Positions 1,344 to 22,879 of a stretch of DNA of 22,879 nucleotides are shown in pieces. The first letter of the stretch is position 1. Every line of letters starts with the position of its first letter. The notes beneath the pieces were generated by a model. The model saw only the letters and a program-made list of their open reading frames with translations, ran no database searches and was not told where the DNA came from. Both the position numbers and the translations under genes were made by a program. Source of the stretch: a virus; the IMG/VR virus record IMGVR_UViG_3300010389_000152, positions 1-22,879 of that record. The stretch is one strand, 5' to 3'.

Positions 1344-1892
1344 GTGAAGAATCTGGTTGATTTTATCCATGTAACACGCGGATTTTTGTCGCACGATACT
1401 TGCGATCAAATCGTGTCTGAGTATTGCAACGAGGGTTTTATCCGCGGTCAGCACCACATTGGATTGGAGCGGCGTAGACTGAGCGAGCTAAACATCTCAG
1501 ATCAATCTGTCATCAGCCAAAAAAATACAGCACACCGTCAGCAGTTAGACGATCTAATGTTTTCAAAGATCGGAAATGTTCTTAAAAGATATCCAGATAT
1601 CATCGTGCAAAATGATTCCGGTTACTCGCTCAGAAAGATGGATACTGGCGATTATTACAAGCAGCATACAGACGAGGGCGCATCTGGCACCGCGCCTTCT
1701 TGGAAGCTAACAGCATCTATCGTGTTAAATGACGACTTTGAGGGTGGTGACTTCTGCTTTTTTGATCGTGAGCTATGCTATACCTTGAAAAAAGGCGACT
1801 GCCTGACATTTCCTGCTAACTTCATGTACCCACACGAAGTAAGAGAAATCACATCCGGCACTCGGTTTGCGCTTGTAACATGGTTCTATTGA
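1344..1892 (+). CDS. 2OG-Fe(II) oxygenase, prolyl 4-hydroxylase-like
   Basis: A 182-aa protein, a full-length single double-stranded beta-helix domain. The iron-binding triad is visible: H108-T-D110 (in YYKQHTDEG) and distal H164 (YPHEV), with R174 ten residues later as the likely 2-oxoglutarate carboxylate ligand (SGTRFALVTW). The core strand LTASIVLND followed by a Gly-Gly turn (FEGGDFCFF) is typical of phage and bacterial P4H-type oxygenases. These couple 2-oxoglutarate decarboxylation to hydroxylation of a peptide, nucleobase or small molecule. The GTG start abuts the upstream stop with no gap. A cupin gene follows after 1 nt. The substrate cannot be read from the sequence. Virion proteins or a product of the neighbouring enzymes are both possible. 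Confidence 0.85.
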   Translation: MKNLVDFIHVTRGFLSHDTCDQIVSEYCNEGFIRGQHHIGLERRRLSELNISDQSVISQKNTAHRQQLDDLMFSKIGNVLKRYPDIIVQNDSGYSLRKMDTGDYYKQHTDEGASGTAPSWKLTASIVLNDDFEGGDFCFFDRELCYTLKKGDCLTFPANFMYPHEVREITSGTRFALVTWFY

Positions 1893-1893
1893 T

Positions 1894-2499
1894 ATGTTTG
1901 AAATAAAGAAAGCACAGTCTGGTCAATCTGCGGTTTTCCAATCTAACGATAAAGATTTATACACATACACCACATATACCGGCAAGCACACGATTAAGGT
2001 TGAGCAAGGCGACTCGGCTTGGATGATCAACCAACAGTCAGCCTCAGTCGTGCGTGGTGAGAAAGAAATCACCAATGACGGCATGACGGTGGTTATTCGT
2101 GGCTACACGCCAGATGAGAAGACGAGCAGCATCCAAACCTATTCAAACCTGCCATACGTTAACGGTTGCAGCACACACCAGATATTTCCGCCTATCAGGG
2201 TAGGCGATCCGACATTGCAGCTACTGTATATGCCGCCACACACAACCGAGCAGGTACACCACATCCACTCAACGGTACGCTGTGTTTACGTTCTTGAGGG
2301 GCAAGGTTGGTCAGTGCAGGGTATGAGTGATACGGTAGAAGAGCAGCTAAACGTGGGTGATGTGTTGGTGCTAGATAAGATGACACCACATCATTTTCGC
2401 ACTGATGACTCACACCTTGTGGTAATACCGTTTCACGTTTACAGCTCAACGCATCTTGAGCATGGTCATCCGATGAAGGATGGCACCCATAAAATTTAG
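1894..2499 (+). CDS. Cupin-domain protein
   Basis: A 201-aa protein. Residues 122-138 fit cupin motif 1: H123-I-H125, then E135 and G136 in VYVLEGQG. Motif 2 follows as GDVLVLDKMTPHHF (155-168), with H166/H167 as the third metal ligand and a strand HLVVIPFHVY completing the barrel. The N-terminal 100 residues may form a second, degenerate beta-barrel half (KVEQGDSAWM and similar strands). The intact His/Glu ligands suggest a metal-binding enzyme (dioxygenase, isomerase or epimerase type) rather than a pure sugar-binding cupin. It starts 1 nt after the oxygenase stop without an obvious ribosome binding site, so translational coupling is likely. The reaction is unknown. Confidence 0.8.
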   Translation: MFEIKKAQSGQSAVFQSNDKDLYTYTTYTGKHTIKVEQGDSAWMINQQSASVVRGEKEITNDGMTVVIRGYTPDEKTSSIQTYSNLPYVNGCSTHQIFPPIRVGDPTLQLLYMPPHTTEQVHHIHSTVRCVYVLEGQGWSVQGMSDTVEEQLNVGDVLVLDKMTPHHFRTDDSHLVVIPFHVYSSTHLEHGHPMKDGTHKI

Positions 2500-2508
2500 A
2501 GGTCAACA

Positions 2509-3132
2509 ATGAATTTATATTCTTTTCCCAACATCGGCTATGTTTTTGAGCCATTACCAACAGACGTTTATGCAAGTTTGCGAAAAACTGCGGATGAATG
2601 CTTAAAAAACGCAGTTCCTTATAACAATAGACTGATGGGGCGTATTCAGGATGAGTACGATATGTCGCTAGAAAACAAAGTCTTTAGTAATTATTTGTTG
2701 CGAAACATTGTTGAAGATTATGACGCAGCACTAGGTAATTACTCGCGGTCGTATGCGGTAGCAGATGAAAATTACGAATTTTTTGTAAGCAGCCTATGGC
2801 TAAACAAGCAGAAAAAACACGAGTTTAACCCTGTACACCGCCACAAAGGCGTGTACTCTTTTGTGATTTGGCTAGACATACCTTACACGTTAGCTGATGA
2901 GGCTGCGTCCTATCCTGATGCTGTTGGTTCAAATAAAGCAGGTGCTTTTGAGTTTCAGTACACGGATACTCTAGGCAGAATCTCACAACTTACATTTGAG
3001 CAGGATAAAGAATTAGAAGGTAGTATTTGTGTGTTTCCTGCATCTTTAACTCACTGCGTCTATCCTTTCCACACAACAGACAAGTGCAGAATATCAGTAG
3101 CCGGAAATATTGGGATTAAGCGTAGCGCATAA
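2509..3132 (+). CDS. Putative 2OG-Fe(II) oxygenase-like protein with HxH motif
   Basis: A 207-aa protein preceded by AGAGG at 2498-2502. The central part resembles small cyanophage-type oxygenases: a Trp-rich strand (SSLWLNKQ), a histidine pair H110-R-H112 followed by YSFVIWLDIPY, then distal H182 (FPASLTHCVYPF) and R194 (CRISVAGNI) 12 residues on. That spacing suits a distal iron ligand and 2OG-binding arginine. The usual acidic residue of the HxD/E motif is not evident, since the position is His. It could therefore be a variant subfamily, bind a different metal, or be a halogenase-like or non-catalytic beta-helix protein. It closes the four-gene cassette. A 59-nt gap with an inverted repeat separates it from the next gene. 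Confidence 0.65.
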   Translation: MNLYSFPNIGYVFEPLPTDVYASLRKTADECLKNAVPYNNRLMGRIQDEYDMSLENKVFSNYLLRNIVEDYDAALGNYSRSYAVADENYEFFVSSLWLNKQKKHEFNPVHRHKGVYSFVIWLDIPYTLADEAASYPDAVGSNKAGAFEFQYTDTLGRISQLTFEQDKELEGSICVFPASLTHCVYPFHTTDKCRISVAGNIGIKRSA

Positions 3133-3661: not shown

Positions 3662-4234
3662 ATGACCCCCGCCGCCCGCCTGTACTTTTTATTCGTATCC
3701 TTATTGTTTGGTGGGCTGCTAGCAGCTTTAGCTAATATCGCTTTTGCCGCCGATCCCATCGTCACGGAATCAACGAGCACTGTTACCACTAACGGTTCTC
3801 AAACAACTACGGTGAAATCACCTCCCCCGTCTGCAATCGCGCCTCAGTTTAGCTCAGGTAGTACTTCTGACCTCTGTACTGTAGGGGCTTCGGGCGCGGT
3901 TCAGACCCAAATTTTGGGTATCTCAATCGGTAGCACTTTTACCGAAGAAAATTGTATACGTCTGAAGAACGCGAAAACGCTTTACGACATGGGTATGAAG
4001 GTCGCTGCCGTATCAGTGATGTGCCAAGACAAGAAGGTGTTTGACGCAATGATGAACGCTGGAACCCCATGCCCATACGACGGTCTAATAGGCGATGCAG
4101 CTAAGGCGGCGTGGGAAACACATACTGACAAGACCCCTGTTGAGGGAGAGACTGATGAACCCACAGCGGAAGACAAACGCAACCAAGCTCTTGGCGTTAT
4201 CGGCGCTATTTTTGGCGGCGCCCTCTTATTCTGA
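3662..4234 (+). CDS. Exported phage protein of unknown function
   Basis: A 190-aa protein starting 1 nt after the upstream stop. Residues 1-29 form a signal peptide (hydrophobic LYFLFVSLLFGGLLAAL, cleavage probably after NIAFA). A Ser/Thr-rich linker (TESTSTVTTNGSQTTT) follows. The middle domain has four cysteines (DLCTVG, ENCIRL, VMCQDK, TPCPYDG) and a helix LYDMGMKVAAVSV, suggesting two disulphides in a periplasmic domain. The end is hydrophobic (ALGVIGAIFGGALLF) and could anchor it. I recall similar Cys-patterned proteins from marine phage contigs but no known function. It is first of five consecutive exported proteins. The last 80 nt overlap the next gene. Confidence 0.7.
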   Translation: MTPAARLYFLFVSLLFGGLLAALANIAFAADPIVTESTSTVTTNGSQTTTVKSPPPSAIAPQFSSGSTSDLCTVGASGAVQTQILGISIGSTFTEENCIRLKNAKTLYDMGMKVAAVSVMCQDKKVFDAMMNAGTPCPYDGLIGDAAKAAWETHTDKTPVEGETDEPTAEDKRNQALGVIGAIFGGALLF

Positions 4235-5015
4235 ATATGAGTTTGGACACACTAATAACGCTGCTGTGGGGGGTAGCACTTGGGGGATGTCTAGTCCTCT
4301 TTTTCCTGTGGCTTCAATACCGGGAGTGGATATCAACGGCGTCTTCTACCGCTACACCGCCATCAAAGACCCAAACGACCCCTATACCGTCAGTGTCCAG
4401 AATGAAGCTGCCAATGGCAGTGGATATATATTCAGGGAGACAGATGATTGGACGCGGGGAAGTGGTGGAACAATCCAAAAATTCGTACCTGTGCCGTATT
4501 CACCACTGGGAGATTGGGGCACTGGATCGATTGAACAGGTGGGTGTAGGTAGTGTTGAAGACCCCATTGTTATGTATAGCTATCGTGTTGACCCTGACCG
4601 GTTGCAGCCAACCCAAGAAGCCTACGACTTTAGTGCCATTTCTACTTACGACGCCCTTAGTGACGGTTACGTCACAGCATCGCTAGAACCAACAGACCGC
4701 GAGCTGTACGAAGACGACGAAGAGCTTAATAAATCTGACTCAGAAGAAGAGGATGATGGTCGGCTAGAAAAGGCTCTGGCGGCTCAAGAAAACGCGCTGA
4801 CATTGGCTGGAAACGTCACTCAGTCAAACATCTTGCGGGCGATGAATGTCGCCACAAACCTAGATTCATACTACGCTGCCCAGATAAACGGTGGCGTATA
4901 TCGAGAAACTGTTGTTTTAAAAGACAAAAATATACCTGATAATAGACGTGCGCTTCGCAGTTTGGGGCAGCAGAAGTTACACACTGATATGGTTGACCAA
5001 CAGTACGGGAGATAA
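4155..5015 (+). CDS. Exported phage protein, beta-rich with acidic region
   Basis: A 286-aa protein. The start is taken at ATG 4155 because GAGGGAGAG lies just upstream (4142-4150) and the protein then begins with a good signal peptide (KLLALSALFLAAPSYS, about 26 residues). An in-frame upstream start at 4095 would bury that signal. Residues 30-150 are Gly/Tyr/Trp-rich beta-type sequence (NGSGYIFRETDDW, VVMYSYRVDP-like). Residues about 186-205 are very acidic (DDEELNKSDSEEEDDG) and could bind Ca2+. The remainder is helical. The gene starts inside the previous one and ends 2 nt before the next, so co-translation is likely. It is probably periplasmic or surface-located. The function is unknown. 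Confidence 0.7.
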   Translation: MNPQRKTNATKLLALSALFLAAPSYSEYEFGHTNNAAVGGSTWGMSSPLFPVASIPGVDINGVFYRYTAIKDPNDPYTVSVQNEAANGSGYIFRETDDWTRGSGGTIQKFVPVPYSPLGDWGTGSIEQVGVGSVEDPIVMYSYRVDPDRLQPTQEAYDFSAISTYDALSDGYVTASLEPTDRELYEDDEELNKSDSEEEDDGRLEKALAAQENALTLAGNVTQSNILRAMNVATNLDSYYAAQINGGVYRETVVLKDKNIPDNRRALRSLGQQKLHTDMVDQQYGR

Positions 5016-5017
5016 CC

Positions 5018-5509
5018 ATGAAGACTTTAATTGCACTGCTAGCATTAACACCTTGCGTCGTTGGTGCGGTAGACGTACCTATTGAGGGTACAGTTCAATC
5101 ACGTTGCACAATCGACACTGATACGGCGGGTGTTTACGGCAACCCAAATGCGTACACGTTGACCACAGCAGCTGCTGACGGCGGTGTGCAGCCTGTTACT
5201 CGTTTTGATGTGACACTGGCAGATGCGTACTACGCGAAGGTTACTCATCCAGATTCATTTAGCACCGCACCAACAGCAAACGCAACTGTAACCTTTACCG
5301 GTGAAACAGAAGTAAGCGCAGTCGGCGATGCAGCGATGTCAGGTTATGAAGCTGCTAAGACTACGTTCGGCAACAGCACTCAGTTTGATTTGACCGAGTC
5401 AGGTTCTGTTTGGTTAAAGACTTCATCCGTTGCTACCAACGGCGGAGATAAAGCGTTCCCGGGCGGCACGTACCGCTCAATCGTGGTGGCTGAGTGTATC
5501 GCCAAGTAA
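5018..5509 (+). CDS. Exported beta-sandwich protein, pilin/spore-coat-U-like pattern
   Basis: A 163-aa protein with GGGAGA before ATG 5018. The first 17 residues are a clear signal peptide (MKTLIALLALTPCVVGA). The mature part starts with IEGTVQSRCTIDTDTAGVYGNP and ends with GTYRSIVVAECIAK. A cysteine near the start and one in a final beta strand of the form GTYxxxVVxxC is the layout of spore coat protein U and type-1-pilin-like domains, where they form a disulphide. The rest is Thr/Ala-rich alternating beta sequence. If the resemblance is real it would be a small secreted structural or adhesive protein. The next gene encodes a protein that could be its chaperone. The family resemblance is tentative. 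Confidence 0.65.
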   Translation: MKTLIALLALTPCVVGAVDVPIEGTVQSRCTIDTDTAGVYGNPNAYTLTTAAADGGVQPVTRFDVTLADAYYAKVTHPDSFSTAPTANATVTFTGETEVSAVGDAAMSGYEAAKTTFGNSTQFDLTESGSVWLKTSSVATNGGDKAFPGGTYRSIVVAECIAK

Positions 5510-13066: not shown

Positions 13067-13473
13067 TTGTGCAGCCTGTACTGAAAGAGAACGTCAGCCA
13101 AGTCTGGAGTTCTGTTGAGAAGTTCATAACAAAAGCGTTAGAATTCTCAAAAGGTGACTACAACGCAGAACATGCTAAAGTGTACCTAGCCAACGGCACA
13201 TGGAATCTATTCGTGGCTGTTGACGAATCTGGCGATATTAAAGGCGCTTGCACAGTAAACTTTGAAAACAGACCGAACGATAGAGTCGCGTTTGTAACTG
13301 CTATGGGTGGTCGCCTAATAAGCGACTCTGACACAATCAACAACTTTAAACAGTTGCTGAAACACTACGGCGCTACCAGATTAGAAGGCGCTGCACGAGA
13401 GTCAACCAAGCGGTTATACGAATCTAAGTACGGTATGGCAGAAAAATACTCTATTGTGGAGACAGCCTTATGA
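13063..13473 (+). CDS. Small GNAT-like phage protein
   Basis: A 136-aa protein, coupled on both sides by ATGA overlaps (13063 and 13470). The order of elements, a helical start, VYLANGTWNLFVAVDE, DIKGACTVNFENRP, VAFVTAMGGRL, then a helix and GATRLEGAARESTKRLYESKYG, resembles a shortened GNAT acetyltransferase-type fold. Small proteins with this pattern are regularly encoded between ejection-protein genes of podoviruses. The acetyl-CoA-binding loop (R/QxxGxG/A) is not evident, so activity is doubtful. It may be a structural derivative. The family idea rests on pattern memory. Confidence 0.6.
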   Translation: MIVQPVLKENVSQVWSSVEKFITKALEFSKGDYNAEHAKVYLANGTWNLFVAVDESGDIKGACTVNFENRPNDRVAFVTAMGGRLISDSDTINNFKQLLKHYGATRLEGAARESTKRLYESKYGMAEKYSIVETAL

Positions 13474-14459
13474 GCGGCGGCGGCGGAACTCAGCAGTCAA
13501 ACGTGACTCAAACAGACATTCCTGAGTGGTTAAAACCATATACGATTACTAACGTTGAGTCGGCTCAAGAAGCTATTACTAAGCCATATCAAGACTTTGG
13601 CCCAGACGTATCTGGCTTCACTTTTGACCAGCAACAAGCTCAGCAAGGTATTTTGCAGCTAGACACTCCGACGGCGTTTGGAACTGCGCAAAATACTTTA
13701 GGTGATATAGCTAGCGTTGCTCAAGGTCAGTCATACGACCCAACTTCTTTTTCTGCTAACTATCAAGCCGCTGAGTTTACTCCAGATGTAGCCAAGCAGA
13801 TGATGGACCCCTACATGCAGTCGGTCGTTGACACGCAAAAGAAACAGATTCAGAAAGACTACGCGCAACAGGCGAACATAAACGCAGCTCAAGCGGTAAA
13901 AGCAGGTGCTTTTGGTGGTGGTCGTGAAGGTGCGCAACGCGCAGTGGCTCAAGATGAAATGCTAGACCGCATGGCTGAAGTTCAAGCTACAGGTACGCAG
14001 CAGGCGTATGAGTCAGCTAGAGATCAGTTTGCTAAGCAAGAAGCGGCTAAGCAGACTCAAGCAACTATGGAAATGACCGCAGATGAGCGCGCTGAGATGT
14101 CTAAACAGTTCGCTGCTAATTTTGGTCAGCAGGGTCAACAAATTGCTCAACAGGCAGCTGAAGGTCAGGCTCGCGTAGCTGCGGCTCAAACAGAAGTAGA
14201 CCAAGCGATTCTCAAAATGCAGAACGCAGTTGGTGCGGAGCAGCAGGCGCAGGCTCAGAAAGAACTTGATTCTGCTAAAGCACGTTTCGAAAGCGAACGT
14301 GACTACGACCGCCAGAACATTATGTTTATGAACGCTGTTCTACGTGGCACACCAATGGGCAGTACCTCAACTTCAAGTCAGTTCAGTGCGACTAACCCAT
14401 ACGCTCAAGCAGTGGGTGCAGGTATCGCGGGTCTTGGCGCCTATCAAAAATTCAGCTAA
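13470..14459 (+). CDS. Gln/Ala-rich coiled-coil internal virion protein
   Basis: A 329-aa protein with GGAG at 13458-13461. It begins MSGGGGTQQSNVTQTDIPEWL, an opening shared by many phage virion proteins of this position. Residues 110-270 are long Gln/Ala/Glu helices (KKQIQKDYAQQANINAAQAV and similar) with coiled-coil character, broken by the Gly-rich GAFGGGREGAQ at about 148-158. The C-terminus is small and hydrophobic (QAVGAGIAGLGAY). Composition and position, just before the transglycosylase and giant protein, resemble the T7 gp14-like ejection proteins. That would form part of the channel for DNA entry. Sequence homology to gp14 itself is not visible. Confidence 0.65.
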   Translation: MSGGGGTQQSNVTQTDIPEWLKPYTITNVESAQEAITKPYQDFGPDVSGFTFDQQQAQQGILQLDTPTAFGTAQNTLGDIASVAQGQSYDPTSFSANYQAAEFTPDVAKQMMDPYMQSVVDTQKKQIQKDYAQQANINAAQAVKAGAFGGGREGAQRAVAQDEMLDRMAEVQATGTQQAYESARDQFAKQEAAKQTQATMEMTADERAEMSKQFAANFGQQGQQIAQQAAEGQARVAAAQTEVDQAILKMQNAVGAEQQAQAQKELDSAKARFESERDYDRQNIMFMNAVLRGTPMGSTSTSSQFSATNPYAQAVGAGIAGLGAYQKFS

Positions 14460-14471
14460 TCGGCAGCAGAT

Positions 14472-16577
14472 ATGAACATCGTAAAGCTTCAGAACGACCT
14501 TAAAGACCTGTCTGACCGTCAGCTGTTAGACACCATGCAAGCAGGCTCAGCGCCGCAGTATCTTGTTTTAAGTGAGATGCAGCGTCGCAAAAAGATGCGC
14601 TCTGAAGCGCAAAGCAAGCCACAGCAACCAACTAGCGTTGCTGACGACATTATGGCTCCGCCAGCTCAACCTCAAGGTTTGGCAGGTATGCCGCAGGTCC
14701 CACAAGTTGCTATGGCTTCAGGTGGCATTGTTGGTTTCGCAGGTGGTCGTGAAGTTTACAAAGACATCGAGAGCATCGAGTCTAGCGGTCGTCAGTATGA
14801 CGCTGAAGGCAACGTACTCACTTCTCCAAAAGGCGCTAAAGGTGTTATGCAGGTAATGCCAACTACGGCAATGGACCCCGGCTACGGTGCTCGAAACATC
14901 TTCCAACTGGCTGATGACTTAGGTGTCGACTACGGCGGCAAGAAAGACCTTGAAACCGCTGAGTTGTTATTAAGCAACGAGATGCTGAACCGTGCTATGG
15001 GCGAAGAATACTTCAAAGCCATGGAAAATCGTTTTGGCTCTGAAGACGCAGCGCTCGCTGCATACAACGCAGGTCCGGGTCGTGTTGGTCGTTCTGGTTT
15101 TGATGAGTCTGGCGACCGTGATGTGCTGCCAGAAGAAACTCAAGGCTACCTAGCTAAAGCTGACAAGTTAAAAGCTGAGCGTAAACTACCTACTCAAACC
15201 GCAGCGGAAGGCATTGCGGCACTGGGCGAAGCTCGTGGCAGTTATGGTCCGGGTGAGATGACTCCTACCCAAATTACCGAAATGTATGGTCCTAGCTGGG
15301 CAGATGTTCCGGGCGATTCAATGCTACGTGGTCTGAACGGTGGGTCTGACGCTGAAACAGTTGCCGACGCAAATGCTCAAACTTTGTTTTTCGACCAAGG
15401 CGGAGCCTACGACGTCAGAGATATGGCTGGCATTCCCAACGCCGGTGGCAGCAGTGTGTTTCCTAATCGTGCTGCTCTGCCTGATATTCCTGAAGATAAA
15501 GGGCTTACTGCGTTGGCGCCGAAGAGCCCACGCGGACAAGTAAGATCACTCTTGCCGGGTGAGAAGATCGTTAACGCAGCTGAGCGTGCGACTGCTGAAG
15601 ACTACGAAGAGCTTCCGTACCGTGCGTTAGCTCCAGATAACGAACCATTCGACATCGAAGCTATGGGTAAAGGACTGCGTCAGCAATCTGCCGCTGATGC
15701 TATTGCAGCTCTCGGCGAAGGTCGTGGTAGCTATGGTCCGGGTGAGATGTCACCTACACCTAAGTCTAATCAGTTCCAACGCAAGTTCGGCGCTCCCGGT
15801 GCTCGTCCTCGTGAAGACGGCGGCATATTCAATCTCATTGATAAGCTAAAGAGCGGCACAACTGCTAACCCTGCGGAGAACGCAGAGGTACTGGCTCAAC
15901 TCGAAGAGATTGAACGTAGCCAAGCAAACAAAGATTTTGACGCTGGCGCTCAGGCACGTATGGACGAGATTGCACGTCGCAGTGGTGAAGTTATCCCAGA
16001 GACTAAACCAGAAGCTCCTAAAGCTGCACCGGTTCCAGAAACCAAAAAGGTTAAGGCTGACGATAACGACTTCACTGATGACGACCCAATCAAGACTCCA
16101 GTTGTTGGTGATCAAGAGCCTCAGTACAGCCCAGTTCGCGACGACAGCATGGCTGACTTCTTAATGCGTGCTGGTCTTGCCACAATGGCTAGTAAGAACA
16201 CTGGCTTCCTTGGCGCACTCGGTGAGGGTGGCATTAAAGGTCTTGAAAGCCTTGATAAGTCTAAAGAAACCGCACGTAAAACTGAAGAAGCACGCATGCT
16301 TGAAGAAGGTCGCATGTCACGCCAACAGATGGCAGGTGAAGCTTCACTTGAAGCTGCAAGACTTCGCGGTGCATACTCTCTGATAGGCTCACTGGCTAAG
16401 CAGGTAGCGAAGATCGACGAAGAAATAGCTGACCCAATTAAGGCGGCTCAACCTTCTGTTATCGAAGCTCTAAAAGCTACTAGAACCAAGCTAATGCAAG
16501 ACATTGAGAAACTGCAAAAGCAAGTTGCTGGCGCTCAAAGCGGAGTAACTAAAGAGTCGCTGAAGCGAGTATCTTAA
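14472..16577 (+). CDS. Virion protein with SLT lytic transglycosylase domain
   Basis: A 701-aa protein. Residues 98-205 form a soluble-lytic-transglycosylase/lysozyme-like domain: E103 in IESSGRQ is the expected catalytic glutamate, followed by GVMQVMP (124-130) and AAYNAGPGRV (196-205). It would cleave peptidoglycan locally during genome injection. The first 90 residues contain a helical start and MASGGIVGFAGG. Residues 244-266 and 407-429 are a 23-residue repeat (19 identical). Residues 430-560 are charged and Pro-rich linkers. The last 120 residues are coiled coil. A C-terminal giant protein follows with GGAGG. This is the T7 gp16-like role of an ejection protein with murein hydrolase activity. 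The domain is secure; the injection role is inferred from context. Confidence 0.85.
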   Translation: MNIVKLQNDLKDLSDRQLLDTMQAGSAPQYLVLSEMQRRKKMRSEAQSKPQQPTSVADDIMAPPAQPQGLAGMPQVPQVAMASGGIVGFAGGREVYKDIESIESSGRQYDAEGNVLTSPKGAKGVMQVMPTTAMDPGYGARNIFQLADDLGVDYGGKKDLETAELLLSNEMLNRAMGEEYFKAMENRFGSEDAALAAYNAGPGRVGRSGFDESGDRDVLPEETQGYLAKADKLKAERKLPTQTAAEGIAALGEARGSYGPGEMTPTQITEMYGPSWADVPGDSMLRGLNGGSDAETVADANAQTLFFDQGGAYDVRDMAGIPNAGGSSVFPNRAALPDIPEDKGLTALAPKSPRGQVRSLLPGEKIVNAAERATAEDYEELPYRALAPDNEPFDIEAMGKGLRQQSAADAIAALGEGRGSYGPGEMSPTPKSNQFQRKFGAPGARPREDGGIFNLIDKLKSGTTANPAENAEVLAQLEEIERSQANKDFDAGAQARMDEIARRSGEVIPETKPEAPKAAPVPETKKVKADDNDFTDDDPIKTPVVGDQEPQYSPVRDDSMADFLMRAGLATMASKNTGFLGALGEGGIKGLESLDKSKETARKTEEARMLEEGRMSRQQMAGEASLEAARLRGAYSLIGSLAKQVAKIDEEIADPIKAAQPSVIEALKATRTKLMQDIEKLQKQVAGAQSGVTKESLKRVS
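15201..15758 (+). repeat. Internal 23-residue repeat of the transglycosylase protein
   Basis: Units at 15201-15269 and 15690-15758 encode related peptides with the common core IAALGE-x-RGSYGPGEM and P-T at the end, 19 of 23 residues identical. DNA identity is highest across TATGGTCCGGGTGAGATG, present in both. The units are 420 nt apart (start of gap to start of unit), within the linker region after the catalytic domain. Confidence 0.85.
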
Positions 16578-16593: not shown

Positions 16594-19500
16594 GTGGCAT
16601 ATACATACCGTTTGCAAACAAGCACTGGACGGGAGATCGCGTTTGAGTCGCCAGAGAAGCTAAGTAAAGCTGAAGCTCAAGACTTCGCTGAGCAGTACGC
16701 TCAAGAAGACCTCGCTGAAGAGCAACGCATCCAAGCGGAAGCGTACGCTGAACGTCAGAAGATGGCGGAAGAGTACGGGGGCTTCAGCGGTCTGTTAGAG
16801 CCTGAGTTCTACTCCCAAGATTTACCTATGGCGCTGGCTCAAGCCGGTTCACAGATTCGTAAGTCTGGCGGTGATGTGCTGACCGCACTCGGTGCTACTG
16901 AAACTGGTAGAGAGTTGTCTGAAGACGCAGCGGCTAACATCAAAGCGTTTGAGCAGATGAAGTCTGACCCATATCAGGCGTTACAAGCTATGAACGCAGC
17001 TGAGCTAGCCCAAGAAGAAGGCAGCATCGGTAAGTTCCTAACTTCAGCTGAGCAGCTGCTTACTAACCCAACACTAGGCTCTCAGGCATTTATTCAATCT
17101 GCCCCTGCTTTGGCGGCTACTGGTGTTGCAGGTCGTGGCGCTACTCTTCTCGGTGCAGGTACGAAGACCGCTACTGGCGCAGCTATGGCTACTGGTGCAG
17201 GTTTGCAATCTGCTGAAGTAGTCGGCGACGTATATCAAACAACTTATGATGCTGAGATCGCAAAAGGCGCGTCTCAAGAAGAAGCGGTGGACCGCGCACT
17301 ATCTAACGCTAGAAACAAAGCTGCGGCTATGTTCGGCGTGTCTATGGCTACTATGATGCTACCGGGTGGTGCGACCCTTGAGAAAGCTTTAGCGGGCACA
17401 AATACTGGTCGTGGTCTTGTTGCAGGTGCGGTTAAAGGTTTCCTCGGTGAAGCAGCTCAGGAAGGCATCGAAGAAGGTACAGGCCAGTACCTGAAGAACT
17501 TAGCGGCGTACGAGTATGACCCATCGGTCGATCTTGGCGAAGGTGTAGCTGAAGCGGCAGGTGCCGGTGCTGCACTCGGTGGTCCTCTCGGTGGATTTGG
17601 TGGCGGTGCTAGTGGCGCATATAACGCCATGGTTGCTAACCAACAAGAACAGTACGAAGCTCTCAAGAAGCAGCTTGAAGAAGCGCAACAGGCGCCAACA
17701 ACTCCGGCGGCTGCACCAGTAGTCGAGGAAGAAGAAGCAGCTGTTGAACAGCCAGATATGTGGTTCCCTACGATTACTGATCCACAGCAGCGTATGGACG
17801 CTATCGACAGAGAGCTTGACTCGTTAAGCAAAGGTCTTGGTGAGTATCAGGGCATCGACGGCAAGATACGTGGCGAGATTAAGAAGTCACTGGATTCTGA
17901 GCGCAAACTGGCTGTTAAGAACCGCCAGAAAGCTCGTGCTGAAGAAGCTAAGCGCAGAAAAGAAGATGAAGCAGCTGTAGAGATGCTGCCTAAGCGCGCT
18001 AAAGATTCAGCGGCGGCGTTTGAACAAGAAGGCGTGCAGGAAGATTTGTTCGGCATCGTGCCTGAAGAAACCCGTGCGCAACCACCTCAAGAGTTCCCAC
18101 TGCCACCAGTAGCTGACAGAACACAAGCTCAGCGTAAACCAACCCCTGTGCAGCCAGATGAAACAATATCTATGGGCTTGCCGCTTGAGGGTGGGTACAC
18201 CCAAACCGATTTCCTAAAAGACGCTGGCTTAGAAGCGGCGCAAGAGTTACCTCCTGCTACAACTAAGCGAGAAGCCCAACGTAAAGCCAAAATGCAAATT
18301 GGCAGACCAACTCGCGACGGTAAAATGTTATCGCTCGGACCTACCTTTGAGCAGACAAGAGACGCACTGGTTGGTTTGGACCTAACTACTGAAGAAGGTG
18401 TAGTTGCAGCGCGTAAGGTTCTTGATGGTCTAGACGTCGCAACTGGCGCGAGAGCACGCGGCGGAGACCAGTGGATTACTGATCTAAGAAACAACCTGTC
18501 ACCACAACTAGCAGTTGTTGAGCAGCAGATTGCTGAGCAGAAAGCCGAAGAGAACGCACGACTAGAAGAAACGCTGGCGCAGCAAGTCGCACAGGATGAG
18601 CAAGCTGCTGAACAAGAAGCGTTTGACGCTGAAACTCGTGAAGGTATAGCGCAGCAGGTAGATGCTCAGGAAGAATCTCAGAAAGCCGCTGAGATGGAGC
18701 AAGCGTTTGCTGATTTACGCGAGCGCAACCAGACCGACACAGCTACTGCAACTGAAGAAGACTTACGTGATCTTGAAGCTTCTGGCTTTGAGCTAGAGCC
18801 GATTGACGTGCAGGCGTACGAGCAGGCAGTTGAGCAATCAAAAGAGTTCGGCGGTGAAGTAAATATCGACGACTACATTCCTAATAACGCTAACCCAGAA
18901 ACCCGTGCTGCTGCCGACAAGATGGCTAAGCAGTATCTGGCTACACGCTACATTGACCTACGTTCAGCTAAAAACCAAGAAGCTATGGCTGAGTTGGAAG
19001 CTACCGCACGTAACATGCTTGGCGATAGAACTTGGGCATCAGTGAAAGGTGCTGTAACTAAACGTCAGAACCAGCAGATTCGCGACCTAAAAGCTCAGAC
19101 TGAAGGCGCAGTCCCCGGTCAAATGGACATGTTCGCGGAGCAAGATAGAAAAGATGCTGCGGCAAGGCGCGTGGCTGAAGCGTACAAGTCTGAGTACAAC
19201 GAGGTAGTAGAGGCGACTTCTAAAGAACGTGCTAAATTGGTGAAAGCGTTGGAAGATACGCTTGCAGCTGAACGCGCAAAACGTGAAACCGCTGAAGCTG
19301 AAGCCGCTCGTGCTAAGAAGGAGGCAGAAGATGCTAAATCAGCCGTACGTGAAACTGAAGTGGGAAGACGGGAGCGTCGAGACGATCAGCAGCCAGCAAG
19401 CGAGCCAAGCGTGGCAGTGGATGAGCGAGCCGTCGAGCCTAAGCCCAAGACCACCAAAAAACCTACTGCACCTAAGTCAGGAGGCGTGGCAGACACTGGG

Positions 19501-22500
19501 GGAGCTGCTGGACGAGATACTGGAGGAACAGGCGGAGAGCAGCCTGCACTAGCACTCCCTGAAGCTGCACCTCTTGTTCAGAAGGCGCTCGCTGACCCAA
19601 GTGAAAATAATGTAGCTGACTTGTTAGATAAGGCAGTAGCTGATGGCTACATGTCTAGCGATCAAGCAGTTCGTTACACCATCAAGTTGAAAGACCCGAT
19701 GGAGCGTGCTCGTGCTATCAATTACGTAGCTCGTGCTATGGCTGACACTGCTTACTTCCAAAATAACCCTGAGCAAGCAGCTGAGATGTCTAAGCAGGTT
19801 GCGACCCTGATAGACGCTAACAAGATTCAGCGCAAGATTGATAAGGCTGAAGCTGACACCGCAGCTGCGGACAGAGAAGCTGCTGAGATTCGTGCGCTTG
19901 AAGAAGAAGGCATCGTTGACGACTTTGATATTTTTGATGCGTCACGTTCACCATTTACTACTGCTGAACCTGCGTCACAAGTTAACGAGCTTGAGAAAGG
20001 TTTCAAGAATCTTATCAGCCGTGTACGTAAGCACAACAAAGTAAACATCGTTCAGTCTGTATCTGATCTCCCCTTTGATGCGCCTAAAGACTTACGTGGT
20101 GCGTATCACAATGGTGAGGTTTACGTTGTAGCAGATAACACTTCGACCCTAGACTTTGAAGAAGTCGTAGCTCACGAAACTGTGGGTCACTTGGGTCTGG
20201 AGAGCATGCTTGGTAAAGGCGGCTTCCGTGCGCTACTACAAACCGTACACAAGTTAAAAGACAGCAATCCTGAGATTCGTCGTGTTCTTGAGAACATCAA
20301 AGCGGCATATACAGACCCACAGGGTCAGTACAACCTAGACGAAATCCAAGAAGCTCGTGAAATCCTTGCGCACATTGCGCAGAGTAAAGCTAACTACCTA
20401 ACTGACAATCGTGTGATGCGTGCTTACAACGCAGTCGTTAACAGGGTTAAGCAGTTCTTAGGTAAGTTGGGTTTCGGCGATCAAGGTTCATTGTTGCTTG
20501 ACCAGTTAATCTACGATGCAGCGATGCACGTCGATGGTGGCAAGCATGCTAACCGTTCAGATCGTTACTTCTTACGCTCACCTTCTGCGGCACAGATGCT
20601 TATGCAACGTGCTTGGGACATGGGCTACCGTGGCTACGATGTAAACGGTGCAGGTGCGTACATGCGCAACCTACCATCAACTACGGTCACGCCTGAGACA
20701 ACTCAGGAGATGTTGAGCGAAGACTTTAACGAAGAGCCGCTAGATCAAGTAGCGTTCTCACGTAAACCTATCAACCCAGAAAACGTTGACCCTAAGTTCC
20801 GTAAGTTCATCAAAGAACGTCCTGAGCCAAAAGGTCTGTTCCGTGCGCTGAAAACCTCTATGGGCATCGGTCCAGATATGCGCATCCGTGACTACATTCG
20901 TGTTACCGGCGTGGATGCTGTATCGACAGTAGAAGACAAGTTGATGCGCTTCTACAACAACCAGTTAGAAGGCGACGGTTGGTTGAACCCAATCGTGTCA
21001 TACGTTCAGGCACTACGTGCTGACGGCATGGCTAACTCACTGATGCGTACCGGTCGCTTGTATGTTAACGAGCATGGTTTGTTCGATACCAAACTAAAAG
21101 AGGGTGAAGACCCTGCGTCATTGCTGAAGGTATTCCAAGCAGTTAAACGTCTTGGTAATCGAATCGGCAGTATAGACACAGCGTCTGAAGCGGTGAGCAA
21201 GGTGCTCATCTCTCGCCGTGAGTTGCAGATCAACGAAGAGAACAAGCGTCTTGAGAAGCTAGAGCAGAAGTTCCGCGACGAAGGCAACAATAAGATGGCT
21301 GACATCACCCGTGAGAAGATCAAGAACATCTTCTTAACTCGTGATGAAAACGGTGAGAACCGTCAGATGACTGAGGCTGAGCTAGCTGAGCGCATGGCTG
21401 AGAACCAGAAGAACATCGACGAGTATTGGGACACAACTCCTGAGATTCGTGAAGCGTTTGAGCTTTTCACCGAGTACAAGAACAACCTGATTCAAACTGC
21501 TGTCGACACAGGCTATATGTCTGAAGAAAAGGCGGAAGCGTTGATGGAGAGCTTGGCGTACGTTCCGTTCTACCGCGAGCAGAATGGCGAGTATGCGCAG
21601 GTTAGCCGCGGCGGTGCTGGTCTTGCAGACATAGAAGTTATCCGTCAGCTGCAAGGTTCTAACAAGGACATCAACGTTCTCGACAACATGATGCAGATGT
21701 CTTTCTTGTGGACAAACGCAATTATGAAGAACCACGCATCGCGTGGCATGGTTGATAGCTTGAATGAGATGGGTGAAGTTAAAAAGATTTACGACGACCC
21801 TAATCAGATTCCACGAAACGAGCCGGTTGTTACCTACCGCGACAAAGGCGTTAAGAAGTACGCGGTGCTTAAAGACCCACTGGACGTGCATGCTTGGCAG
21901 GGTATGGAGCACGTTGCGATTGGCGGCATGCTGAAGCCTCTAGCGAAAGCGTCTGACTTGTTACGTAAAGGTGTAACCTTGATGCCTGACTTCATTATCA
22001 GTCAGCTTGAGCAGGATACATTCCGTGCGTTCGCACTCAGTGGTGTTAAGAACCCAACTAAAGCGGCATCGCAAGTTATTCCGTCATACGCGAAGATTAC
22101 TAAGAACCTGTTGAAGGGTGAGCTAGGCGATCAGCGTCTGAGTGAGCTTGGCATCATCGGTATGTTTGACGTATCACCGATTCATACTCGTGAGCAGCTT
22201 GAAGGTCCTAACGTAAACGACCCAGAAGTTGGTCTTGGCTCAAACTTGAAGAAAGCTCTCGCTAAAGGTGAGAAGTTCTCTGAAGCATCTGACTTGGCAC
22301 AACGTAAAGCTATTTACGACCAGACTATTGCCGAGGGCGGCTCTGAAGTTGAAGCGTTCTGGCGTGCATCTGAGATCATTAACTTCTCACGTCGTGGCTC
22401 AGGCACGACCGCACACATCGCTCGTCAGGCTATTCCGTTCTTCAACGCTTGGCTGCAAGGTCAGTCAGTATTGTGGAAGTCACTGTTCAACCGCGGCTTG

Positions 22501-22879
22501 AGCTTGGAAGAGAAAGGCAAGATTATGAACCGCTTCGTTTTGAACGGTTTGAAGATAGCTGCTCTCTCAATTGCGTATGCAGCTGCGATGGACGACGACG
22601 AAGCTTGGCAGAATCAACCTGAGTATATTCGTAGTCGTTATTTCGGTATTCCGATTGGTGATGGTCGCTTCATTAAGATTGCTATGCCACCTGACTTGGC
22701 GTTCTTGTTTAAGTTCATCCCAGAAAACGTTGTGATGGAAACTGTTGGCGGTAGAGATACTGACCCAGATAAGTTGGCTATGGAGTTCCGTAGTGCTTTA
22801 GGTCACGCGATCATGGGTCCGAACATTACACCTCAGATCATCAAACCGACAGTTGAGGCTGTGTTCAACACTAACTTTA
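16594..22879 (+). CDS. Giant polyvalent-type ejection protein (3' end beyond window)
   Basis: GTG at 16594 with GGAGG at 16584-16588. 2,095 complete codons without a stop to the window edge. Residues about 163-350 are Gly/Ala-rich and hydrophobic and may enter membranes. Residues 350-1000 are long Glu/Gln/Ala helices. Residues about 1120-1230 contain HETVGH (H1194, E1195, H1198), an HExxH zincin-like metallopeptidase motif in VVAHETVGHLGLES. The last visible region (QAIPFFNAWLQGQ, PEYIRSRYFGIPIGDG, FIKIAMPPDLAFLFKF) resembles LPD38, a C-terminal domain of phage polyvalent proteins. Such proteins are packaged and injected to act on the host early. Size, position and domains fit a podovirus large ejection protein. 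A nested ORF lies at 19331-19552. The order and number of further domains are not resolved. Confidence 0.85.
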   Translation, partial: MAYTYRLQTSTGREIAFESPEKLSKAEAQDFAEQYAQEDLAEEQRIQAEAYAERQKMAEEYGGFSGLLEPEFYSQDLPMALAQAGSQIRKSGGDVLTALGATETGRELSEDAAANIKAFEQMKSDPYQALQAMNAAELAQEEGSIGKFLTSAEQLLTNPTLGSQAFIQSAPALAATGVAGRGATLLGAGTKTATGAAMATGAGLQSAEVVGDVYQTTYDAEIAKGASQEEAVDRALSNARNKAAAMFGVSMATMMLPGGATLEKALAGTNTGRGLVAGAVKGFLGEAAQEGIEEGTGQYLKNLAAYEYDPSVDLGEGVAEAAGAGAALGGPLGGFGGGASGAYNAMVANQQEQYEALKKQLEEAQQAPTTPAAAPVVEEEEAAVEQPDMWFPTITDPQQRMDAIDRELDSLSKGLGEYQGIDGKIRGEIKKSLDSERKLAVKNRQKARAEEAKRRKEDEAAVEMLPKRAKDSAAAFEQEGVQEDLFGIVPEETRAQPPQEFPLPPVADRTQAQRKPTPVQPDETISMGLPLEGGYTQTDFLKDAGLEAAQELPPATTKREAQRKAKMQIGRPTRDGKMLSLGPTFEQTRDALVGLDLTTEEGVVAARKVLDGLDVATGARARGGDQWITDLRNNLSPQLAVVEQQIAEQKAEENARLEETLAQQVAQDEQAAEQEAFDAETREGIAQQVDAQEESQKAAEMEQAFADLRERNQTDTATATEEDLRDLEASGFELEPIDVQAYEQAVEQSKEFGGEVNIDDYIPNNANPETRAAADKMAKQYLATRYIDLRSAKNQEAMAELEATARNMLGDRTWASVKGAVTKRQNQQIRDLKAQTEGAVPGQMDMFAEQDRKDAAARRVAEAYKSEYNEVVEATSKERAKLVKALEDTLAAERAKRETAEAEAARAKKEAEDAKSAVRETEVGRRERRDDQQPASEPSVAVDERAVEPKPKTTKKPTAPKSGGVADTGGAAGRDTGGTGGEQPALALPEAAPLVQKALADPSENNVADLLDKAVADGYMSSDQAVRYTIKLKDPMERARAINYVARAMADTAYFQNNPEQAAEMSKQVATLIDANKIQRKIDKAEADTAAADREAAEIRALEEEGIVDDFDIFDASRSPFTTAEPASQVNELEKGFKNLISRVRKHNKVNIVQSVSDLPFDAPKDLRGAYHNGEVYVVADNTSTLDFEEVVAHETVGHLGLESMLGKGGFRALLQTVHKLKDSNPEIRRVLENIKAAYTDPQGQYNLDEIQEAREILAHIAQSKANYLTDNRVMRAYNAVVNRVKQFLGKLGFGDQGSLLLDQLIYDAAMHVDGGKHANRSDRYFLRSPSAAQMLMQRAWDMGYRGYDVNGAGAYMRNLPSTTVTPETTQEMLSEDFNEEPLDQVAFSRKPINPENVDPKFRKFIKERPEPKGLFRALKTSMGIGPDMRIRDYIRVTGVDAVSTVEDKLMRFYNNQLEGDGWLNPIVSYVQALRADGMANSLMRTGRLYVNEHGLFDTKLKEGEDPASLLKVFQAVKRLGNRIGSIDTASEAVSKVLISRRELQINEENKRLEKLEQKFRDEGNNKMADITREKIKNIFLTRDENGENRQMTEAELAERMAENQKNIDEYWDTTPEIREAFELFTEYKNNLIQTAVDTGYMSEEKAEALMESLAYVPFYREQNGEYAQVSRGGAGLADIEVIRQLQGSNKDINVLDNMMQMSFLWTNAIMKNHASRGMVDSLNEMGEVKKIYDDPNQIPRNEPVVTYRDKGVKKYAVLKDPLDVHAWQGMEHVAIGGMLKPLAKASDLLRKGVTLMPDFIISQLEQDTFRAFALSGVKNPTKAASQVIPSYAKITKNLLKGELGDQRLSELGIIGMFDVSPIHTREQLEGPNVNDPEVGLGSNLKKALAKGEKFSEASDLAQRKAIYDQTIAEGGSEVEAFWRASEIINFSRRGSGTTAHIARQAIPFFNAWLQGQSVLWKSLFNRGLSLEEKGKIMNRFVLNGLKIAALSIAYAAAMDDDEAWQNQPEYIRSRYFGIPIGDGRFIKIAMPPDLAFLFKFIPENVVMETVGGRDTDPDKLAMEFRSALGHAIMGPNITPQIIKPTVEAVFNTNF
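19318..19324 (+). promoter_or_regulatory. Shine-Dalgarno AAGGAGG inside the giant gene
   Basis: A perfect seven-base match to the anti-Shine-Dalgarno complement, six bases (CAGAAG) before ATG 19331. It is stronger than the ribosome binding sites seen for most annotated genes here, and it lies within a coding region where it serves no purpose for the host frame. Confidence 0.65.
19331..19552 (+). CDS. Nested 73-aa ORF in the +1 frame of the giant gene
   Basis: ATG 19331 to TAG 19550-19552, 73 residues, starting six bases after AAGGAGG. The protein begins MLNQPYVKLKWEDGSVET, is rich in Gln/Ser/Trp in the middle (QQASQAWQWM) and ends in an acidic amphipathic helix (EAWQTLGELLDEILEEQ). This looks like a small beta-hairpin plus helices. 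The overlapping host frame here encodes a Pro/Lys/Gly linker with atypical codons (Gly: seven GGA, one GGG, two GGC, no GGT; Arg mostly AGA/CGG/CGA), as expected if selection acts on the nested frame. I recognise no family. The longer reading from TTG 19262 is unlikely because the Shine-Dalgarno points to 19331. Confidence 0.55.
   Translation: MLNQPYVKLKWEDGSVETISSQQASQAWQWMSEPSSLSPRPPKNLLHLSQEAWQTLGELLDEILEEQAESSLH

Follow-up and report, generated by a model that had tools for sequence, protein, structure and literature searches.

Does the gene of a giant phage protein harbour a second, complete gene in another reading frame? The question arises in the IMG/VR virus record IMGVR_UViG_3300010389_000152, whose whole viral contig of 22,879 bases is the stretch analysed here (the window). 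An open reading frame (ORF) of 73 codons lies there in the +1 frame within a giant virion-protein gene, and an earlier note, made from the sequence alone, had proposed that a small protein is encoded inside the giant gene. Our analysis supports this proposal, with relatives of the ORF and constraint on it ruling out chance. We put the probability at roughly 93% that the ORF is a conserved protein-coding gene, overprinted on the giant virion-protein gene and translated by internal initiation; its existence, frame and position, its start sites, its conservation and the constraint acting on it can be read from the sequences compared.

Direct reading of the window bears out the signals from which the earlier note had argued, namely a +1 ORF of 73 codons with an ATG (at 19331; the TAG stop occupies 19550–19552) and an AAGGAGG at 6-nucleotide (nt) spacing. 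The predicted product of 73 amino acids (aa) is MLNQPYVKLKWEDGSVETISSQQASQAWQWMSEPSSLSPRPPKNLLHLSQEAWQTLGELLDEILEEQAESSLH. Pairing of this Shine-Dalgarno (SD) sequence with the anti-SD amounts to −11.7 kcal/mol; of 190 further off-frame start codons in the giant gene, none is preceded by pairing as strong. The claimed abrupt change in codon choice is equally real: the ten glycine codons of the giant frame inside the overlap comprise GGA 7, GGC 2, GGG 1 and GGT 0, whereas the remainder of the gene uses GGA 4, GGG 2, GGC 60 and GGT 80. Across the same stretch the giant frame turns, as had been described, into a linker rich in Gly, Pro, Thr and Lys. The length of the ORF alone is not evidence, because ORFs of 77 aa (22268–22501) and 68 aa (19838–20044) share its frame and its gene. 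These remaining +1 ORFs of like length are absent from the constrained intervals of the third-position scan described below. A chance ORF is ruled out by comparative evidence, that is, by relatives and by constraint.

A DNA search of phage and plasmid collections and a giant-protein scan of genome contigs returned no close relative. Probes taken from the middle and from the N-terminus of the giant protein found nothing, and one from the C-terminal part led to the nearest relative, IMGVR_UViG_3300025889_000689 (L002), whose giant protein is ~43% identical. L002 carries a +1 ORF of 73 codons (5150–5371) with the same start and SD as in the window and a product that is 64% identical. The conserved N-terminus of the neighbouring transglycosylase as probe identified 23 viral loci, most of them with a giant gene downstream. 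With a hidden Markov model (HMM) built from the two small proteins and later from 13, the ORF was found in 17 contigs in total, without exception on the + strand and in the +1 frame relative to the giant ORF. An HMM not trained on them recovered four members (L017, L024, L027 and L031) with E values from 1e-13 to 1e-17, and under a 17-member HMM the weakest member scores E 5e-19 while the next match scores 0.85. The small protein alone, searched against 2.9 million viral contigs, yielded 36 loci, partly the same contigs as in the HMM set; every one of the 36 is embedded in frame +1 within a giant ORF, and no free-standing copy is among them. Among the loci found, the embedded family is exclusive to giant virion-protein genes, and it comprises ~37 distinct small products (38 entries, one gene having been entered twice with two starts). 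Conservation in relatives, on which the earlier note had made its proposal depend, is borne out, the ORF being open, the start kept and the SD usually kept. The same hidden, unannotated gene lies within giant genes in dozens of further phages, probably including some cultured ones.

The second expectation of the earlier note, a loss of synonymous variation in the giant frame over the ORF, was confirmed by a sharp third-position drop in all pairs tested. Between the window and L002, giant codons specifying the same amino acid are identical in 36 of 42 cases inside the overlap, compared with 348 of 681 outside (Fisher p 5e-6). A scan of six pairs placed the giant gene's minimum of third-position changes over the embedded ORF each time; the L029/L030 pair shows a tie, only for second place. 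Substitutions between L028 and L029 at giant codon positions 1, 2 and 3 number 16, 6 and 0 inside the overlap and 251, 152 and 533 outside. Because giant position 1 coincides with position 3 of the small gene, changes fall where they alter the small protein least. Measured against the pattern outside the overlap, 15 pairs show fewer changes in the small protein than expected (p 0.0005–0.017; 2,000 simulations allow no value below 0.0005, and the null derives from outside codon-position ratios without giant-frame selection). In many pairs the giant protein is in turn more changed inside the overlap than outside, as between the Erwinia phages Pavtok and PEp14, with 33 of 75 codons changed inside versus 9% outside. 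Since the small protein under-changes while the giant protein often over-changes, the giant frame is mostly the more relaxed of the two over the overlap. The ORF combines two marks of an overprinted gene, a complete frame with its own start and stop and selection on that second frame.

Synonymous constraint by itself cannot separate a second protein from an RNA or DNA element, such as a structure, a packaging signal or a recombination signal. However, the changes observed keep the codon periodicity of the +1 frame, every member has an uninterrupted +1 frame complete with start and stop, and a protein HMM finds similarity across highly diverged loci. We regard such an element as the least probable of all the explanations weighed here.

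Start signals recur across the family. At the starts chosen, pairing with the anti-SD has a mean of −7.1 kcal/mol, compared with −1.9 kcal/mol at other off-frame starts of the same genes (p 2e-10), a contrast that is favoured by the starts having been picked partly by eye with the SD in view. The start codon is ATG in most members and GTG in five (L014, L026, L052, L065 and L073), its location being kept. These data also bear on programmed +1 ribosomal frameshifting, by which the ORF would supply an alternative C-terminal tail to a truncated giant protein. The frame relation is indeed always +1, and a +1 shift can be promoted by a sequence resembling an SD, prfB being an example. Yet nearly all members have their own initiation codon at SD spacing, and in L017, L019, L020 and L022 same-frame stops lie 4–6 codons 5' of the start and therefore leave little room for a shift out of the giant frame. 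Moreover, synonymous conservation between the window and L002 begins near the SD and start codon and not further 5', and inspection by eye revealed no common slippery codon. Because of the start signals, the upstream stops and the codon periodicity, frameshifting, like an RNA element, is a poor explanation, and we consider it very improbable.

Does an overprinted gene of this kind also occur in cultured phages? A tblastn search of four members of the IMG/VR groups against cultured phages gave no credible match. In a scan of cultured phages with the enlarged HMM, the top-ranking candidate was an ORF within the PEp14 giant gene (Erwinia phage; E 0.21), which lies in frame +1, ends in LTLH before the stop, and has counterparts in the Erwinia phages Pavtok and Stean; overlap-like substitution intervals are found at its place in Pavtok/PEp14 and Pavtok/Stean. 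Serratia phage Parlo (E 3e-8) and Klebsiella phage ZX1 have the ORF as well. With the ZX1 copy as tblastn query, three N4-like Erwinia phages, S6, Pastis and Fifi011, gave matches in their virion RNA polymerase genes (E 0.01–0.6). There the ORFs are all +1 and all end in SLH before the stop, and S6/Fifi011 show an overlap-like interval at aa 997–1036. The records of these cultured phages have no gene annotated at the ORF site. Judged by the shared +1 frame, place, motif and LH end, the cultured-phage ORFs are likely homologous to the window family.

Several results weigh against a conserved overprinted gene of this breadth. Profile similarity between the IMG/VR groups and the Pavtok/ZX1/S6 group is weak, hhalign giving a probability of 15% in one comparison and of 16% (global) and 82% (local) in a second. 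Some members (L027, L017) have a weak SD. The family is undetected in relatives with similar giants (L015, L032, N4, LUZ7, DSS3phi2, LASTA and SopranoGao), and Skulduggery likewise has no detectable copy; because similar giants without a detectable copy exist, no giant protein strictly needs the small gene. Finally, PHROGs, Pfam, Foldseek and VIA-align pointed to no function, whether by fold or by family.

Three observations from giant genes stand beside these results. Aeromonas phage phiARM81mr (L037) has a +1 ORF in its giant gene at 2738–2932 that ends in KMTKH before the stop; it is the best match among non-carriers with the combined HMM (E 0.012) and a possible further member. In Vibrio phage D274 (L036), the giant at aa ~1039–1098 shows 8, 4 and 1 substitutions at codon positions 1, 2 and 3 compared with phage 1.232.O, so that third positions hardly vary although the other two do; it has no match to the embedded family, possibly indicating a different overlapping gene. 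The PEp14 giant (L082) has a second overlap-like interval at aa ~1564–1658 compared with Stean and partly with Pavtok.

The place of the ORF within the giant proteins follows a pattern. The N-termini of the window, Pavtok, Parlo and S6 giants match phrog_2206, the virion RNA polymerase family (E 5e-11 for the window). By single, uncalibrated comparisons, giant N-termini form a chain of profile similarity from the window group to the Pavtok and N4-like groups, from these to B6 and B7, and on to most IMG/VR groups; the B8 N-terminus is unlinked. In N4, the N-terminal domain is thought to be membrane-spanning, and the linker to the polymerase comprises residues 907–1007 (PMC12633501). The embedded ORF starts at aa 964 in S6, 918 in Pastis and 902 in Fifi011; by these residue numbers, the ORF in N4-like genes falls where N4, in which we detected no embedded ORF, has the linker that follows its N-terminal ejection domain. 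The first element that can be recognised after the ORF is, in the window giant and most of those from IMG/VR, a metallopeptidase-like HExxH motif.

The products of the family have 54–93 aa, are hydrophilic overall and end nearly always in Leu/Val/Ile-His. Most are acidic (isoelectric point 4.3–5.0), with exceptions at 6.6 (L020) and 9.6–10.1 (L013, L014). AlphaFold predicts a beta-hairpin and two helices for the window product (predicted local distance difference test, pLDDT, 83) and a two-helix hairpin for the short form (pLDDT 90). The window product has no Cys and no hydrophobic stretch, and its grand average of hydropathy (GRAVY) is −0.68. Matches of members in PHROGs and Pfam were marginal and inconsistent among members, and Foldseek gave no convincing match for the small-protein models. 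The best VIA-align match of the window model was unconvincing (Z 3.0, root-mean-square deviation (rmsd) 3.9, 59 aligned), and that of the short model (Z 5.1, rmsd 3.3, 55 aligned) was within the level for unrelated small helical models.

What, then, might the small protein do? The earlier note had suggested that it may act on or regulate the giant protein or the host. The level of its translation, the stability of the product, its partner and its role are what we infer from here on. Ribosomes very probably start internally at the SD-led ATG or GTG in the giant mRNA and make a mostly acidic protein of the size range given above, its core predicted to be a two-helix hairpin. Over the overlap, the small frame is the one under strong selection and the giant frame serves as a flexible linker. 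Coming from the same mRNA, the small protein would appear at the same time and place as the giant protein, might bind it at the N-terminal delivery region or at the linker as this emerges, and might aid its solubility or folding, its packing in the head or its ejection. Provided that the gene is real, such a chaperone or assembly-partner role in folding, packing or ejection seems plausible to us, if short of an even chance; a delivery partner is favoured because what the carriers have in common is the N-terminal region together with the linker, whereas the payload is not shared.

A real gene could instead have a product that acts on the host (takeover, anti-defence) or regulates late expression, its site in the giant gene being history only. 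Overprinted genes are hard to move, so that co-location is no proof of a functional link, and the payloads of such giants target the host (PMC5512222). However, none of the 36 loci found with the small protein alone is free-standing although phage genes reshuffle readily, and the site stays beside the N-terminal region across giants with differing payloads; we hold this alternative to be possible but somewhat doubtful. The downstream HExxH motif, ~150–680 residues past the embedded start in most of the window and IMG/VR groups, would agree with a product of the real gene that inhibits or times the giant's metallopeptidase before packaging. Such control is unlikely given that the peptidase motif of the Pavtok, ZX1 and N4-like groups is >1,200 residues away, behind other payloads, and that it is common for giants to have a peptidase-like region yet lack the small gene. 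Extending the partner role to the whole family, the embedded gene might be an old cofactor of giant ejected proteins in podophages, including N4-like ones, seated in the linker between a delivery domain and exchangeable payloads (RNA polymerase, methylase/helicase, peptidase), the same mRNA pairing each giant with its packaging or ejection partner; this broader picture is speculative and, on balance, unlikely.

The features of the window that bear on the carrier protein are listed with the embedded gene in the table.

Table. Embedded gene, its start signal, its carrier and neighbouring genes in the window.
Feature	Position	Strand	Remarks	Basis
Embedded (overprinted) gene	19331..19552	+	73 codons + TAG, frame +1 relative to the giant gene	ORF reading, homologues, constraint
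Shine-Dalgarno AAGGAGG	19318..19324	+	6 nt before ATG; same motif and same spacing in L002	
Giant virion (polyvalent) protein gene	16594..22878	+	2,095 codons, still open at contig end	
Giant N-terminal region, aa 29–409	16678..17820	+	Like the N-terminal part of virion RNA polymerases (phrog_2206)	
Metallopeptidase-like region, aa 1121–1295	19954..20478	+	HETVGH motif at aa 1194; 3' of embedded gene	
LPD38, large polyvalent protein associated domain, aa 2002–2095	22597..22878	+	Cut by contig end	
SLT transglycosylase virion protein	14472..16577	+	Neighbour; conserved N-terminus used as probe for relatives	
DNA ejection protein family (phrog_4287)	13470..14459	+	Neighbour	

The earlier note had called the outer gene a giant ejection-protein gene, a label that agrees with the phrog_2206 N-terminus, the LPD38 match of the C-terminal part available and the DNA-ejection and SLT neighbours. 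With LPD38, the phrog_2206 N-terminus and an HExxH region, whose domain type was assigned by comparison with PMC5512222, the outer gene has the features of a polyvalent giant. Packing and injection are presumed for such giants (PMC5512222), and gene neighbours and families suggest that the window protein, too, is packaged in the virion and ejected into the host. In the neighbouring transglycosylase, the N-terminal module at 14472–14747 (MNIVKLQNDLKDLSD...GSAPQYLVLSEMQRRKKMR) is highly conserved among the 23 viral loci while the rest of the protein diverges. Elsewhere in the window, a cupin gene lies between two 2OG-Fe(II) oxygenase genes (1344–3132), an unusual cargo among virion genes, and a 306-aa ORF (4095–5015) overlaps the ORFs 3662–4234 and 4237–4548 in other frames.

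It is an open question by what means a phage keeps proteins of 2,000–5,000 residues, packs them and drives them through a narrow tail, and a conserved small protein inside giant genes, overlooked in the annotation of cultured phages, would offer a direct handle on giant delivery. Fully overlapping genes are still missed in well-studied phage groups and can be found by the loss of synonymous variation in giant genes. Out-of-frame embedded genes are known as a kind; in the open-licence literature we found no description of this family, its exclusive residence in giant genes or its probable presence in cultured and N4-like phages. The carrier giants belong to or resemble the packaged and ejected N4-like virion RNA polymerases and DarB-like/PLxRFG giants (PMC5512222), for which annotation and papers cover the giant frame only, with no embedded gene annotated. 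The closest parallel in gene arrangement is the Rz/Rz1 spanin pair, in which lambda Rz1 is embedded +1 in Rz: both are small out-of-frame genes fully inside a larger phage gene, with their own SD, widespread and often unannotated. Unlike Rz1, the window product is no lipoprotein, and the outer gene encodes a virion giant rather than part of a lysis cassette; an Rz1-type o-spanin was rejected, as the product has no lipobox Cys and is hydrophilic. In function, the accessory Dar proteins of P1 (DarA-Hdf, PMC12810830) may work alike, being extra phage proteins in the head beside ejected antirestriction proteins; this likeness is by function description alone, and those proteins are encoded by separate genes, whereas the gene described here is overprinted on that of its giant.

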